Positions 25,314-31,123 of a stretch of DNA of 64,000 bases are shown one piece after another. The notes beneath the pieces were generated by a model. It made no database searches and was not told the origin of the DNA. It saw only the letters and a list, made by a program, of their open reading frames with translations. Position numbers and translations under genes: made by a program. Origin of the DNA: Gracilinema caldarium DSM 7334 (GTDB taxonomy: Bacteria; Spirochaetota; Spirochaetia; Treponematales; Breznakiellaceae); assembly GCF_000219725.1 (NCBI RefSeq), contig NC_015732.1, positions 2,610,972-2,674,971 on the forward strand, given 5' to 3'. Within the stretch, counting starts at the first letter, position 1; each line of letters opens with the position of its first letter.

Positions 25314-25625
25314 TTACAATAAAATCTTCTTTCCCAGATCGGTTGAACTAAAACCTTTGAACGATTCATCAAATCGAATTATTTGAACCTTTGACAGTTC
25401 CATTTCTTTTGTACATTGAACAATCTCAGGATAGAAGGGTATTTCCGCACCATCTTTAACGAACAGAGGTATTCGTTCCAGGGGACTTACTATTTCTTTT
25501 AACCAGAGGCCACCTTTTAACTTCTCTCCAGACCAGAAATCAATCCAGCTTCCAGCGGGCAGATAGACATCTCGAATACCTTGGCTATTCATGACTGGAG
25601 CGACCAAAATAGAAAAGAAACGAAT
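25314..25625 (-). pseudogene. Remnant of a GH31 alpha-glucosidase/alpha-xylosidase (C-terminal end)
   Basis: The minus strand encodes about 100 residues matching the C-terminal barrel edge and beta domain of GH31 enzymes: ILVAPVMNSQGIRDVYLP, then AGSWIDFWSGEKLKGG, then PLERIPLFVKDGAEIP. A stop codon lies immediately upstream in the same frame (TGA at 25626-25628). The only possible start is a TTG, and the whole catalytic barrel is absent, so this is a decayed fragment. Its position beside a XylR-like regulator suggests that a xyloside-use locus was once larger here. Confidence 0.8.
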
Positions 25626-25748
25626 TCAACCTTCACATATCATTATTCAAACTCAGCTAGTAGAAAGAGAGAGCACATAAACAGTATTCCCTTTCTCTTT
25701 ACAAACCGCGAAAATGTAAGTAAATTTAAAGCGGTGATGGAGTCCACC

Positions 25749-25777
25749 TTGGCACCAGCCTGAACCGCCCGGGATAT
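25749..25777 (+). promoter_or_regulatory. Possible promoter of the MutS-like operon
   Basis: TTGGCA (25749-25754), a 17-base spacer and GGATAT (25772-25777) would start transcription near 25784, just before the hairpin that covers the ribosome site. The -10 is poor, so the assignment is weak. Confidence 0.25.
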
Positions 25778-25790
25778 CCCCTGCTGATGA

Positions 25791-25838
25791 CTCCTTCCGA
25801 TACGGTCCGTATTGCGGACCACAAGAGACGGAAGGAGG
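25791..25838 (+). promoter_or_regulatory. Leader hairpin covering the ribosome site of the MutS-like gene
   Basis: CTCCTTCCG (25791-25799) is perfectly complementary to CGGAAGGAG (25829-25837), which contains the Shine-Dalgarno sequence GGAAGGAGG of the gene starting at 25844. Inside it a second perfect stem pairs GGTCCG (25804-25809) with CGGACC (25815-25820) around a five-base loop. Folded, the leader would block translation. Such a design fits a thermosensor, a protein-binding leader or a small riboswitch. No known class is recognised. Confidence 0.6.
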
Positions 25839-25843
25839 CTACC

Positions 25844-27448
25844 ATGATATCTATCAGTCTGCTTTTTCCTGATCCACAGGATCCACGAAGATTAGAATCT
25901 CAGGATATGCCAGATTATTTCATCGATCTCAATCTGGATCAGATTCTAACTACCATTACCAACTCACTGCCGGACTATGGCTTGGAATCAGTTTTTTACC
26001 AAAACCTGCATTCCCTTGATGAAATTCGTTACCGGCAACAGATCTTTCAGGACCTGGAACAGCCTGAACTTTTACAAGGCTTCAGAACCTTTTCCAGCAC
26101 CCTTCGCTCTGTACGGCGAACCCTCAGTTCCCTGGAAAAGCTATACAATCCCTGGCATCGCCGGGGGTGGTTTTTGGAATCTGCCCGGGTCTACCAGGAT
26201 GCGGTCGAAGGTCTTTACAGCATACTCCAACATATATCTCTCCATTCCAAAGGCTTTTTAGCCCTGCGGGAATACCTTAGCTCCTACAGGGCTTCTGCGC
26301 AATTCCAAAACTTACAAACCGAAATAGAAAGCCTCACCAGAGATCTTTCATCCATCCGATACAGTATTGTTATTAAGGGACTTACGGTTAGAGTCAAAAA
26401 ATACGAGGGGGAGCCGGACTACTCATCGGACATTGAATCTTTTTTCAGTCGCTTCCGTCAGGGGGATACTAAAACTTACCTTGTTAAAATGAACGAACCC
26501 GCTGGACTCAGTAATGTGGAGAGTCAAATACTCAGTGGTGTAGCAACCTTGTATCCGGAACTATTTAGCCATCTTACCACCTTCTGTGAAGTCTATACTA
26601 GTTATATTGATGAAACCCTGGATACTATTGAACGGGAACTGCAGTTCTATATCACCTATCTGGATTACATACAACCAATCCTGGATGCAGGTTTGCCCTT
26701 CTGTTATCCTGATTTTGATACCTCTAAAAACCTTGATATTCTGGAACTCTATGACCTGGTCCTGGCAAAAAAACTAAGAAGCCCCTCTACCTCAGTGGTT
26801 ACTAATGACCTTGACATATCTGGTGAAGAACGAATTGTGGTGATCACCGGTCCTAACCAGGGAGGAAAGACCACCTTTGCTCGAGCTGTAGGACAGTTAC
26901 ATCATCTGGGGGCCCTTGGGTTTCCCGTTCCAGCCCGCAGAGCTCATCTGCTATTAATCGATGCCATCTACACCCATTTTGAACGGGAAGAAACCACAAA
27001 AAGCCAACGGGGCCGGCTCCACGAAGAACTCATCGCTTTGCATAATCATCTCAAGCAAGCCACCGATACGAGTCTCTTTATTTTGAATGAAGTCTTTTCA
27101 TCAACCACCTTACAAGATGCTCTGTATTTAGGAACTCGGATTCTGGAGCAGATTCTGAAACTCGATGCCATTGCTATCAGTGTAACCTTTCTGGATGAGC
27201 TTGCAACCTTGAACGATCATGTGGTTAGTATGGTTACCAGCATCGATCCGGCAGATCCCTCCATCAGAACCTTTAAGGTTATCCGCAGACCAGCGGACGG
27301 TCTGGCTTATGCACGGTCTATTGCTGAAAAATACCATCTTACCTACGAATGGCTGCACAAACGGTTTCAAAACAAAGAGTATTGCATAGCTGATAAAAGA
27401 CAAAATCGGTGTCTGGTTACTACCGTAACCGAGGAGGTTCAGAGATGA
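25844..27448 (+). CDS. MutS-like ATPase lacking mismatch-recognition domain (first of pair)
   Basis: This 534-residue protein has a helical N-terminal and middle region like the MutS core/lever, then a MutS-type ABC ATPase. Walker A is GPNQGGKTT at about 336-344. Walker B is LFILNEVFSSTT, with Asn where many MutS proteins have Asp, followed by the signature-like helix. The N-terminal mismatch-binding domain and its Phe-x-Glu motif are absent, as is a C-terminal Smr domain, so it is neither MutS1 nor MutS2. The start at 25844 is set by GGAAGGAGG; an in-frame ATG at 25787 has no ribosome site. It overlaps its paralogue downstream by four bases, so the two products are probably made in equal amounts and may form a heterodimer. 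The cellular role is unknown. Confidence 0.85.
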   Translation: MISISLLFPDPQDPRRLESQDMPDYFIDLNLDQILTTITNSLPDYGLESVFYQNLHSLDEIRYRQQIFQDLEQPELLQGFRTFSSTLRSVRRTLSSLEKLYNPWHRRGWFLESARVYQDAVEGLYSILQHISLHSKGFLALREYLSSYRASAQFQNLQTEIESLTRDLSSIRYSIVIKGLTVRVKKYEGEPDYSSDIESFFSRFRQGDTKTYLVKMNEPAGLSNVESQILSGVATLYPELFSHLTTFCEVYTSYIDETLDTIERELQFYITYLDYIQPILDAGLPFCYPDFDTSKNLDILELYDLVLAKKLRSPSTSVVTNDLDISGEERIVVITGPNQGGKTTFARAVGQLHHLGALGFPVPARRAHLLLIDAIYTHFEREETTKSQRGRLHEELIALHNHLKQATDTSLFILNEVFSSTTLQDALYLGTRILEQILKLDAIAISVTFLDELATLNDHVVSMVTSIDPADPSIRTFKVIRRPADGLAYARSIAEKYHLTYEWLHKRFQNKEYCIADKRQNRCLVTTVTEEVQR

Positions 27449-28944
27449 AAGTGCATTTATTACATGAAAATACCGATTTTGATACAGCGGCTTCTCTCCC
27501 TCCTCAAACAGATGCTCTCATGCAGGACCTGGACTTGGACATCCTCATCCGGGCCATGTCCGATGATGACAAATATCTGGCAGAGGTTGCAAAAAGCGTG
27601 CTGTTCCAAAGCCTTTTAGAAAAGGACCACATACTTTACCGACAGGAAATTCTACAGGATGCCATAGATAATGAAGGACCGCTTCGGGACCTCTACGCCC
27701 TAGCCAATGAGGCCATAGAAGCAAAGCGGCATAGTTGGTTCAGCATGTTTGGAGCCTATCCCAGTTCCATTTTGTACGGTTCAGTCCGGCTGTTACAAAT
27801 GTATGTACCCATTCTGGAGCAGCTTCGAAAATGGACAAAACAATATCAGCAGCTGTTCCGGTCCCGGGGGCTCCGCCGGTTCTGCCTCATGATACAGGAA
27901 GAATTGAACGACGACTATATGAAAAATCTCGTATTGTATCTTAAGGAACTCCAGTTTATCGATGGGGTCATGATCAGTGCAGGACTGAAGGCAGGGAATG
28001 AACCTTTCCAGTATGAACTGAGAAAACCCCACAGACGGGACCCAAACTGGATCCGTCGCTTATTCTCACCACGGACCCCCTCCTTTACCTTTTCTTTAGA
28101 CCCCAGAGATGAAGCCGGAGGACGAGCCCTTGGGGAACTGCGGGATCGAGGTATTAATTATGCGGCCAACGCGGTAGCCCAATCAGCGGACCATATAGAA
28201 AATTTTTTTAAGATTCTTAAACAAGAGCTAGCCTTTTATATTGGCGCTTTGAATCTTAAGCAACACCTGGTAAGTCTTGGAGAACCCTACACGTTTCCAA
28301 TCGTGAATACCGATCCGGTCCCTACCTTTGAATGCTCTGGTCTGTACAACATCTGTCTAGCCCTGGTGGCAAACAAAGCGGTAATGGGGAACTCGGTCCA
28401 GGCAAGGGGTAAACATCTCGCCATTATTACCGGTGTTAACGAAGGTGGAAAATCGACCTTTCTACGAAGTGTCGGCATTGCCCAGCTTATGATGCAGTCC
28501 GGACTTTTTGTCCCAGCCCAGAGTCTCATCGCCGATATTCGCAGTGGAGTATTTACCCATTACCGCAGAAAGGAAGATCGGAATCTTGGGTCCGGTAAGT
28601 TTGATGAAGAATTAAAGCGAATGAATACCATTGTGGACCTTATGGGACCTAATAGTCTTATCCTTTTTAACGAGTCCTTTGCTTCTACTAATGAACGAGA
28701 GGGTTCCGAAATTGCCCGATACATTGTTTCAGCCCTTCTGGAAGCGGGAACGAAAGTATTTTTTGTAACCCACCTCTACACTTTTGCGCACTATTTTCAG
28801 GAGCAGGCATCAGCCACCACGATTATGCTCCGGGCAGAACGGCGTCAGGATGGAAGCCGGACCTTCAGGATTGTGATGGGAGCCCCATCACAGCATAGTC
28901 ATGGGGAAGACCTATACAAACAGGTTTTTACCGAAGCTCTCTAA
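27445..28944 (+). CDS. MutS-like ATPase lacking mismatch-recognition domain (second of pair)
   Basis: This 499-residue paralogue of the preceding gene has a helical core to about 310 and then the MutS ATPase. Walker A is GVNEGGKST at about 330-338. Walker B is LILFNESFASTNEREGS, and a conserved His lies in FFVTHLYTF. As in its neighbour, the mismatch-recognition and Smr domains are absent. GAGGAGG within the end of the upstream gene and the ATGA overlap fix the start at 27445. The two proteins differ clearly in sequence, which fits a divergent pair with distinct halves of one composite ATPase. I do not know an assigned function. Confidence 0.85.
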   Translation: MKVHLLHENTDFDTAASLPPQTDALMQDLDLDILIRAMSDDDKYLAEVAKSVLFQSLLEKDHILYRQEILQDAIDNEGPLRDLYALANEAIEAKRHSWFSMFGAYPSSILYGSVRLLQMYVPILEQLRKWTKQYQQLFRSRGLRRFCLMIQEELNDDYMKNLVLYLKELQFIDGVMISAGLKAGNEPFQYELRKPHRRDPNWIRRLFSPRTPSFTFSLDPRDEAGGRALGELRDRGINYAANAVAQSADHIENFFKILKQELAFYIGALNLKQHLVSLGEPYTFPIVNTDPVPTFECSGLYNICLALVANKAVMGNSVQARGKHLAIITGVNEGGKSTFLRSVGIAQLMMQSGLFVPAQSLIADIRSGVFTHYRRKEDRNLGSGKFDEELKRMNTIVDLMGPNSLILFNESFASTNEREGSEIARYIVSALLEAGTKVFFVTHLYTFAHYFQEQASATTIMLRAERRQDGSRTFRIVMGAPSQHSHGEDLYKQVFTEAL

Positions 28945-28953
28945 GGACAGACC

Positions 28954-29322
28954 ATGAAACATCACAATGAAGAAGCGGAACTTCATTCACCAAAACTTTC
29001 CGAGGAATTGGAAGACCAACTGCGGCCATCTCGTTATCTTGGCTATGATAGGGATCACCTGGGAGTAGCGCTACTCCGCCGCGAAATGTTCGAAGCGGCT
29101 GCATCCCAGTTTAAACGGGCCGTATACCTGAATCCTTACGAGAGCGCTTTTAAACAGCATCTAGCTTGGTGTTTATATAAGATGAACCGGCTATCCGAAG
29201 CGTTAACAGAAATAGAAACAGCATTGCAACAAAAACCTGAAGACCCTGATTCTCTTACTGTTCGAAAACGGATCCTGCGGGCTCAAAAAGAAGAGGGCCC
29301 ACGCAGAAAAGAGTCCCCCTAA
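28954..29322 (+). CDS. Small TPR-repeat protein
   Basis: This 122-residue soluble protein contains about two tetratricopeptide repeats. The clearest run is LGVALLRREMFEAAASQFKR followed by AVYLNPYESAFKQHLAWCLY. The ends are charged and probably disordered. It starts nine bases after the second MutS-like gene, so it belongs to that operon and may be an adaptor for the ATPase pair. No enzymatic motif is seen. Confidence 0.8.
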   Translation: MKHHNEEAELHSPKLSEELEDQLRPSRYLGYDRDHLGVALLRREMFEAAASQFKRAVYLNPYESAFKQHLAWCLYKMNRLSEALTEIETALQQKPEDPDSLTVRKRILRAQKEEGPRRKESP

Positions 29323-29381: not shown

Positions 29382-29426
29382 CCCTGCTAAACCCATAAGG
29401 TTCAGCAGGGGCGCTTTTTATTTTTT
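29382..29426 (+). terminator. Terminator of the MutS-like operon
   Basis: CCTGCTAAACC pairs with GGTTCAGCAGG around a five-base loop with one mismatch. The stem is followed by GGGCGCTTTTTATTTTTT on the plus strand. This T-run contains the stop codon of the convergent GGGtGRT gene (29418-29420), so the two transcription units meet with no spare sequence. Confidence 0.7.
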
Positions 29427-30419
29427 AAGTGCTTCGGCAAGGGCTACTGCAACCGCTACAGAGGCTCCGACCATGGGATTATTACCCATACCAAGGAAAC
29501 CCATCATTTCCACATGGGCTGGAACTGAAGAAGAGCCGGCAAACTGAGCATCAGAATGCATTCGGCCCATCGTATCGGTCATACCATAGGATGCAGGTCC
29601 TGCAGCCATGTTGTCTGGATGCAGAGTTCGTCCCGTTCCACCGCCAGAGGCTACAGAAAAATATTTCTTTCCCTGTTCGACACATTCCTTTTTATAGGTT
29701 CCTGCTACTGGATGCTGGAAACGGGTTGGATTGGTACTGTTCCCTGTTATGGAAATATCAACCTTTTCCTTATGCATAATGGCCACTCCCTCGCGGACAT
29801 CATCGGCTCCATAACAACGAACCTGTCCCCGTTCTCCGGAGGAATAGGGAATAACTTCCACAACCTTAAGCTCTCCAGTGTAATAATCAAACTGGGTCTT
29901 TACATAGGTGAATCCATTGATACGGCTGATTATCTGGGCAGCATCCTTACCAAGACCATTAAGGATAACCTGCAGGGGTTTCTTTCGAGCCCGGTTTGCA
30001 CTTTTAGCGATACCGATGGCACCTTCGGCAGCCGCAAAGGATTCATGCCCCGCTAAAAAACAGAAGCAGTTGGTTTCTTCCGAAAGGAGCATAGCCGCCA
30101 AATTTCCATGACCTATACCAACCTTACGATCATCCGCCACTGAGCCAGGAATACAAAAGGCTTGCAAGCCTTCGCCTAATGTACGGGCAATTTCTGCCGC
30201 CGAGCGAGAACCCTTCTTAATGGCAATGGCTCCACCAACAATATAGGCCCATACAGCATTATCAAAACAAATTGGCTGAATTCCCCTGACAATACCGGGG
30301 ATATCCAGGCCCTTGGATTCACAGAGGGCCTTTGCTTCCTCGAGGGAATTGATACCATATTTATTAAGGACCGGAAGAATCTGCCCGATCCGACGTTCAT
30401 AACTTTCAAATAACGCCAT
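29418..30419 (-). CDS. GGGtGRT family protein
   Basis: This 333-residue soluble protein is named for its motif. Here SGGGTGRTLHPDN lies at about 258-270. Other conserved-looking segments are GIGHGNLAAMLLSEETNCFC, FLAGHESFAAAEGAIGIAKS and ITGNSTNPTRFQHPVAGTY. Six or more cysteines are spread through it. The family is typically encoded next to an IscU/NifU-like scaffold protein, exactly as here, and its biochemical role is not known to me. It starts 11 bases after the scaffold gene and so is the second gene of a two-gene operon. A role in iron-sulfur or sulfur handling is inferred from the neighbour only. Confidence 0.9.
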   Translation of the reverse strand: MALFESYERRIGQILPVLNKYGINSLEEAKALCESKGLDIPGIVRGIQPICFDNAVWAYIVGGAIAIKKGSRSAAEIARTLGEGLQAFCIPGSVADDRKVGIGHGNLAAMLLSEETNCFCFLAGHESFAAAEGAIGIAKSANRARKKPLQVILNGLGKDAAQIISRINGFTYVKTQFDYYTGELKVVEVIPYSSGERGQVRCYGADDVREGVAIMHKEKVDISITGNSTNPTRFQHPVAGTYKKECVEQGKKYFSVASGGGTGRTLHPDNMAAGPASYGMTDTMGRMHSDAQFAGSSSVPAHVEMMGFLGMGNNPMVGASVAVAVALAEALKK

Positions 30420-30430
30420 GCTGTTCCTCC

Positions 30431-31123
30431 TTATTCGTGCCGTGGATCGATAACCTTAACCGCTTCGGCGAAACGGCCATAGGTACCCTTTGCCTTTGCC
30501 AGGGCTTCGTTTGCATCCACACCCTTTTTAATGGCATCCATCATTTTCCCCAGATTTACAAATTCATAGCCGATTATTTCGTCCTTCTCGTTTACACCGA
30601 CCCGGGTAACATACCCTTCGGCCATTTCCAGATACCGGGGCCCCTTCAGTTTTGTTGCAAACATGGTTGCAACCTGGCTCCGCAAACCTTTTCCCAGATC
30701 TTCCAGACTGGCTCCAATGGGAAGCCCCCCTTCAGAAAAAGCAGACTGGCTTCGGCCATAAGCAATTTGCAGGAACAGTTCCCTCATGGCCGTATTGATA
30801 GCGTCACAAACCAGATCGGTATTCAGGGCTTCCAGAATAGTTTTACCAATAAGGATTTCTGCAGCCATTGCTGCTGAATGGGTCATACCAGAACAGCCGA
30901 TAGTTTCTACCAGGGCTTCTTCTATAATACCATCTTTGATATTCAGGCTCAGTTTACAAGCTCCCTGCTGGGGTGCACACCAGCCAACACCGTGGGTAAA
31001 CCCAGAAATATCCTTAATTTCCTTTGCTTGGACCCATTTTCCCTCTTCTGGTATAGGGGCTGGACCATGATAGGCCCCCTTTGCTAGGGGACACATGTGC
31101 TCTACTTCGGTAGAATACATCAT
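30431..31123 (-). CDS. IscU/NifU-like iron-sulfur scaffold protein
   Basis: This 230-residue protein is related to the NifU N-terminal/IscU scaffold fold, on which iron-sulfur clusters are assembled. Candidate cluster ligands are Cys49 and Cys56 (GWCAPQQGACKLS), Cys77 (ETIGCSGMTHSA) and Cys106. The segment IIEEALVETIGCSGMTHSAA matches the family's core, but it is longer than IscU (about 125-150 residues) because of a C-terminal extension. No IscS, IscA or Suf gene is adjacent. It heads an operon with the GGGtGRT gene. GAGGAG precedes the ATG, and the mRNA leader is unusually long (about 180 bases) for this genome. Confidence 0.85.
   Translation of the reverse strand: MMYSTEVEHMCPLAKGAYHGPAPIPEEGKWVQAKEIKDISGFTHGVGWCAPQQGACKLSLNIKDGIIEEALVETIGCSGMTHSAAMAAEILIGKTILEALNTDLVCDAINTAMRELFLQIAYGRSQSAFSEGGLPIGASLEDLGKGLRSQVATMFATKLKGPRYLEMAEGYVTRVGVNEKDEIIGYEFVNLGKMMDAIKKGVDANEALAKAKGTYGRFAEAVKVIDPRHE

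Follow-up and report, generated by a model that had tools for sequence, protein, structure and literature searches.

What frees a ribosome-binding site that is buried in a hairpin in front of a MutS-like operon? The question is posed by positions 25791-25838 of a 64,000-nucleotide stretch of the Gracilinema caldarium DSM 7334 genome (this whole stretch is referred to here as the window). A preliminary description, made from the letters alone, had proposed translational control of the operon by temperature, a ligand or a protein. The hairpin itself, the RNA element directly upstream, the leaders of related genes and the regulated genes were analysed.

The leader hairpin and the upstream aptamer

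The hairpin and the genes behind it comprise the following features.

25791-25799, forward strand: left (anti-Shine-Dalgarno) arm of the putative expression-platform stem, CTCCTTCCG; assigned from sequence and fold, retained in orthologues
25829-25837, forward strand: right arm of the same stem, CGGAAGGAG; sequence and fold, likewise retained in orthologues
25804-25820, forward strand: inner platform hairpin, 7 bp (25804-25810 with 25814-25820); fold
25832-25838, forward strand: Shine-Dalgarno (SD) sequence AAGGAGG, 5 nt before the ATG at 25844; sequence
25844-27448, forward strand: MutS-like protein A (MutS-A), 534 aa, Walker A motif TGPNQGGKTTFA; Pfam MutS_V 2.6e-18, structure model and SD position
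27445-28944, forward strand: MutS-like protein B, 499 aa; Pfam MutS_V 2.9e-22 and sequence
28954-29322, forward strand: small TPR protein, 122 aa, probably on the same transcript; Pfam TPR_2 5e-9

The arms CTCCTTCCG and CGGAAGGAG are perfect complements over 9 bp (C25791-G25799 with C25829-G25837), exactly where a 9-base perfect stem had been claimed. The right arm holds most of the SD sequence AAGGAGG of the ATG at 25844, and the proposed burial of this sequence, and with it of the ribosome site of the MutS-like operon, was borne out. The enclosed second stem, described as six perfect pairs, was shown to consist of 7 bp, i.e. six Watson-Crick pairs and one G-U pair (GGTCCGT/GCGGACC, 25804-25810/25814-25820). 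The predicted folding energy of the 61-nt hairpin segment is -25.6 kcal/mol (z -4.05), and 0 of 200 shuffled sequences were equally stable. Downstream, the stop of A and the start codon of B overlap in ATGA (27445-27448), and B has an SD-like sequence of its own, GAGGAGG, inside A.

An Rfam scan of the whole window returned a single match, the fluoride riboswitch aptamer, directly upstream of the hairpin and overlapping its stem. The preliminary description had caught the output half of a switch and missed its sensor. The leader features are as follows.

25724-25803, forward strand: fluoride riboswitch aptamer, RF01734; cmscan 43.5 bits, cut-off 34, E 9e-9 (whole window)
25733-25748, forward strand: pseudoknot helix, GGTG 25733-25736 with CACC 25745-25748; covarying among 21 aptamers, 98.8% of cells paired
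25739-25744, forward strand: P1 5' strand GGAGTC, pairing with 25789-25794; two-sided changes at five of the six P1 pairs among 21 aptamers
25789-25794, forward strand: P1 3' strand GACTCC, its last four bases common to the SD-sequestering stem; sequence and helix counts
25698-25726, forward strand: promoter-like TTTACA-17-TAAATT, a possible, weak leader promoter; consensus scan 9/12, 0.5 expected by chance

Beyond its score, which exceeds the curated cut-off (43.5 versus 34 bits), the element possesses the P1, P3 and pseudoknot helices with the conserved core, and lies in a leader position, with 40 nt from the aptamer match to the MutS-A start, in front of genes that are repeatedly linked to fluoride riboswitches. 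Model R1 scores it at 50.5 bits, and every one of its P1 and pseudoknot pairs is standard. Across an alignment of 21 aptamers (A3), P1, the pseudoknot and P3 were shown to covary, with 97.4% of cells paired and two-sided changes at 9 of 13 pairs; 0 of 500 shuffles reached the pairing counts and none reached the covariation score. The bases A, U and G at 25737-25739 and U and G at 25788-25789, which we take to be the equivalents of the fluoride/Mg2+ ligands in the Thermotoga petrophila structure, are all present, and U25795 presumably corresponds to the P1-closing base of the ligand-bound Thermotoga aptamer. These features indicate, with high confidence, that fluoride would be the ligand. The MutS-A ORF is open upstream of its start (25787-25843), and automatic gene calling could set that start 57 bases early, hiding the riboswitch; the longer ORF, from an ATG at 25787, would begin inside the aptamer and is unlikely.

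As a background for the SD complementarity, the window and sampled stretches totalling 400 kb, together 464 kb of the host genome, were surveyed for SD-bearing starts of ORFs that span 100 codons or more, which gave 489 cases. Of these, 417 lack any perfect stem of at least 5 bp over the SD, and only two have one of 9 bp. Both lie behind fluoride aptamers: one is the MutS-A leader, the other that of the second fluoride riboswitch in this genome. When the P1 strand was kept and the downstream bases were shuffled, the stem was matched in ~0.2% of 5000 shuffles. Approximately five of the nine pairs are nearly free, because the CUCCU of the aptamer is itself an anti-SD sequence that complements any strong SD, the UCCG/CGGA pairs being the added part. 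This partial gift of the aptamer is what can be said for a complementarity that arose by chance and has no function, a possibility that is close to negligible given the counts above and the retention of both stem and inner hairpin in orthologues.

The proposed switch and its alternatives

The left arm of the stem begins inside P1, C25791-C25794 belonging to both helices. Since this arm reuses the last four bases of P1 and the next U, the two folds are mutually exclusive, and the ribosome site should become free in the presence of fluoride. Once P1 is formed, the platform can keep only the pairs of 25796-25799 with 25829-25832. An anti-SD strand that is common with a ligand-stabilised aptamer helix, combined with the lack of a terminator U-run, is the layout of a translational ON riboswitch, and the hairpin is very probably the expression platform of such a switch, turned on by fluoride.

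Without fluoride, 25791-25799 would pair with 25829-25837, burying the SD sequence of MutS-A and leaving A untranslated; B, if coupled to A via the ATGA overlap, would be largely untranslated as well. Fluoride and Mg2+, on binding the aptamer, would cause P1 (25739-25744/25789-25794) and its closing pair to hold C25791-U25795 captive. The five outer platform pairs would then be lost and AGGAGG (25833-25838) exposed, so that ribosomes may start at 25844. Both the binding of fluoride by the present copy and the size of the effect are inferred. The closed fold is predicted to be better by ~11 kcal/mol (-45.4 versus -34.7 kcal/mol, pseudoknot and ligand energies being ignored), a preference that implies action of fluoride while the RNA is made. 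Fluoride thus probably acts during transcription, in the ~40 bases between the aptamer and the SD arm, and control would be kinetic (co-transcriptional) rather than at equilibrium.

Of the three signals originally listed, the ligand is the one that gained support, from the aptamer that adjoins and overlaps the stem, whereas temperature is disfavoured. An RNA thermometer, whose hairpin would open at growth or heat-shock temperature to expose the ribosome site, would suit an SD-covering leader hairpin and a moderately thermophilic host (published growth optimum of Spirochaeta caldaria H1 48-52 °C, upper limit 60 °C). However, the hairpin appears too stable for this role, as computation alone indicates that the SD core hardly opens at any of the temperatures computed (37, 48 and 60 °C), with bases 25832-25837 at least 94% paired in the predicted fold even at 60 °C. 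None of the Rfam thermometer families was matched and a fluoride aptamer overlaps the stem, and a thermometer is therefore considered very improbable.

Under control by a protein, a regulator such as MutS-A would bind the hairpin to govern translation, and the aptamer would be a relic. Autoregulatory leader hairpins do exist in other operons, but the conserved aptamer positions and the overlap of P1 with the platform are all kept; no evidence of a protein regulator was found in this analysis, nor any pointer to a protein-binding motif, and we find this explanation barely tenable.

It is unlikely, though less so, that a genuine aptamer acts mainly on transcription, with the SD-blocked, untranslated mRNA undergoing degradation or Rho-dependent termination. 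Translational riboswitches are known to have Rho-linked effects, and many of the homologous switches upstream of MutS genes carry intrinsic terminators, which likewise compete with P1. In the present leader, no T-run follows the platform stem (after 25837), which rules it out as an intrinsic terminator, and any effect of Rho would be secondary to blocked translation. The translational switch preferred here gives a precise picture of how a single strand may act both as aptamer helix and as anti-SD.

Leaders of relatives and the second switch of the genome

Five spirochaete leaders (that of the window and those of G001, G066, G052 and G043) have in common the aptamer, CTCCTTCCG, a hairpin in the corresponding position and, ahead of the start, CGGAAGG. 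In the four orthologues, the inner hairpin differs in sequence and retains its position, and the G043 leader has a mismatch at the outermost stem pair. Covariation of the stem in relatives, put forward as a check of the hairpin, was not found for the outer stem among these five close orthologues, where the stem is nearly invariant and the test uninformative; support comes from the inner hairpin, which varies yet is always present. The near-invariance follows from the left arm being fixed by the aptamer and the right arm by the SD sequence; since these other functions fix the outer stem, its missing covariation is no clean refutation.

Support also comes from the SD stems of more distant switches; G098 has AACTCCT/AGGAGTT. 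In the wider SD-type set, stems were chosen as the best complement, a procedure that favours apparent covariation, and only 55% of them individually beat shuffles at p<0.05. Switches with a GGAG-type P1 account for 20 of the 33 that are SD-type and for 15 of the 39 that are terminator-type, a difference that is suggestive only and confounded by relatedness. The G098 locus (C15, L060) carries, between its fluoride switch and MutS-A, a short ORF that resembles the start of a sodium/proton antiporter and is perhaps the remnant of a replaced gene.

The G. caldarium genome (3,239,340 bases, one contig) encodes a second fluoride switch (G000:C1:2576532-2576609; L001 1501-1578), in which ATAACTCCT/AGGAGTTAT forms on the SD sequence of an MFS transporter gene. 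This transporter has relatives at further fluoride loci and is a candidate fluoride-response transporter. Genes for CrcB and CLC are also present in the genome, and the aptamer model gave no match in the stretches examined around them. Across 496 kb of control and side-check sequence, the model gave no match with E <0.6 beyond the two known switches there.

The MutS-like pair and its genomic setting

In both A and B, Pfam detected domain V only, and a mismatch-binding domain was not detected. Neither protein qualifies as MutS1 or MutS2: the NCBIfam MutS model (MutS1) gave 82 bits against a cut-off of 480, and the MutS2 model TIGR01069 scored the two proteins at 54 and 71 bits (cut-off 400), with no Smr domain found by Pfam. 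The structure model of MutS-A (mean pLDDT 85.8, from a 33-sequence alignment) aligned with the cores of MutS and MutS2 at Z values close to 30. Its predicted fold resembles the MutS2 core (7vuk, Z 28.7 across 370 residues) and corresponds to MutS/MSH proteins from approximately residue 171 of E. coli MutS onward, the position at which most structural alignments to that protein begin. Sequence identity in these comparisons is 16-22%. Two other assignments were rejected: PADLOC matches to anti-phage systems were weak and mostly confined to the ATP-binding site, and the NCBIfam KamC model, representing a KamC-like reactivase, matched A and B over the ATPase region only and far below its cut-off. 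A MutS2-like or chaperone-like ATPase function seems more likely than mismatch repair.

The 80 best relatives of the window gene were compared, a sample chosen by similarity, so that its proportions are not those of all MutS-like genes. In 65 of these 80 loci, a fluoride riboswitch is located within ~6 kb (the flank examined); it lies <450 nt upstream of the MutS match in 45 loci and further upstream on the same strand in 18. The aptamer upstream of the MutS gene of G041 is a weak match (28.9 bits). The order A then B was observed in 66 of the 80 locus sets, mostly with the same overlap, and the genomes in which the pair accompanies fluoride riboswitches are assigned to many phyla. Neighbours in the compared loci include enolase (16), a dynamin-like GTPase (16), DUF190 (15), MFS (14), CrcB (11) and sodium/proton exchanger (9) genes, as well as Usp and pyrophosphatase genes. 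No homologue of the small TPR protein was found in the related MutS loci compared. In nine loci (L068, L071, L092, L100, L104, L108, L112, L118 and L121), between three and six matches to the fluoride riboswitch fall within 14 kb, some as divergent pairs; these loci represent fluoride-resistance islands.

Two further observations concern the flanks of the operon. On the reverse strand, genes for a GGGtGRT protein and a NifU-like protein (29418-31123) adjoin it. G041 and G053, which belong to other families, have the same pair beside fluoride-riboswitch genes (MutS and CrcB, respectively), but in six further genomes no riboswitch was detected in its vicinity. Also on the reverse strand, 25314-25607 encodes a 97-aa fragment that matches the C-terminal domain of glycoside hydrolase family 31 and is apparently a gene remnant.

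Fluoride was reportedly named as the ligand of this RNA class by Baker et al. in 2012. The crcB-motif RNAs upstream of mutS had been described earlier by Weinberg et al. (2010, PMC2864571), who suggested a link to DNA damage; that report preceded the identification of fluoride as the ligand (PMC7266159). The RNA class and its position upstream of genes annotated as mutS are the same here, but terminators were stressed in that report, whereas the present leader has a translational platform and precedes a tandem pair of short MutS-like ATPases with Pfam domain V only. Translational RF01734 members are known, those of Pseudomonas syringae and Burkholderia pseudomallei having served as translational controls in one study (PMC13273304); these switches likewise have P1, P3 and the pseudoknot, a P1 that competes with a downstream stem, and an ON response to ligand. 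In the present case, by comparison, the SD arm pairs with the CUCC of P1 over nine pairs, the inner hairpin is variable and a MutS-like pair is regulated. Given both precedents, the kind of switch is not new: the leader is a clear SD-capture layout within an already known RNA class.

The fluoride-resistance operon of Enterobacter cloacae FRM (PMC5533749), in which one fluoride riboswitch drives ppaC, uspA, eno, gpmA and crcB, lacks a MutS-like gene, whereas homologues of most of its genes lie beside the MutS pair in related loci. The word MutS is absent from a 2024 review of microbial fluoride resistance, and in the literature collection searched no paper named the fluoride riboswitch and MutS together, the link appearing only under the older name crcB motif. 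The larger point of this locus is the controlled gene, a MutS-like pair that is found beside fluoride riboswitches, next to enolase, CrcB and pyrophosphatase. Unlike MutS and MutS2, these proteins occur as an A-B pair in fluoride islands, with no mismatch-binding domain detected, and the pair is probably part of the fluoride response. As a tentative proposal, it may constitute a dedicated and widely transferred fluoride-tolerance machine without a mismatch-repair role, perhaps an ATPase that rescues enzymes or ribosomes from fluoride poisoning, whose riboswitch control would be exerted by termination or by SD capture, depending on the lineage.
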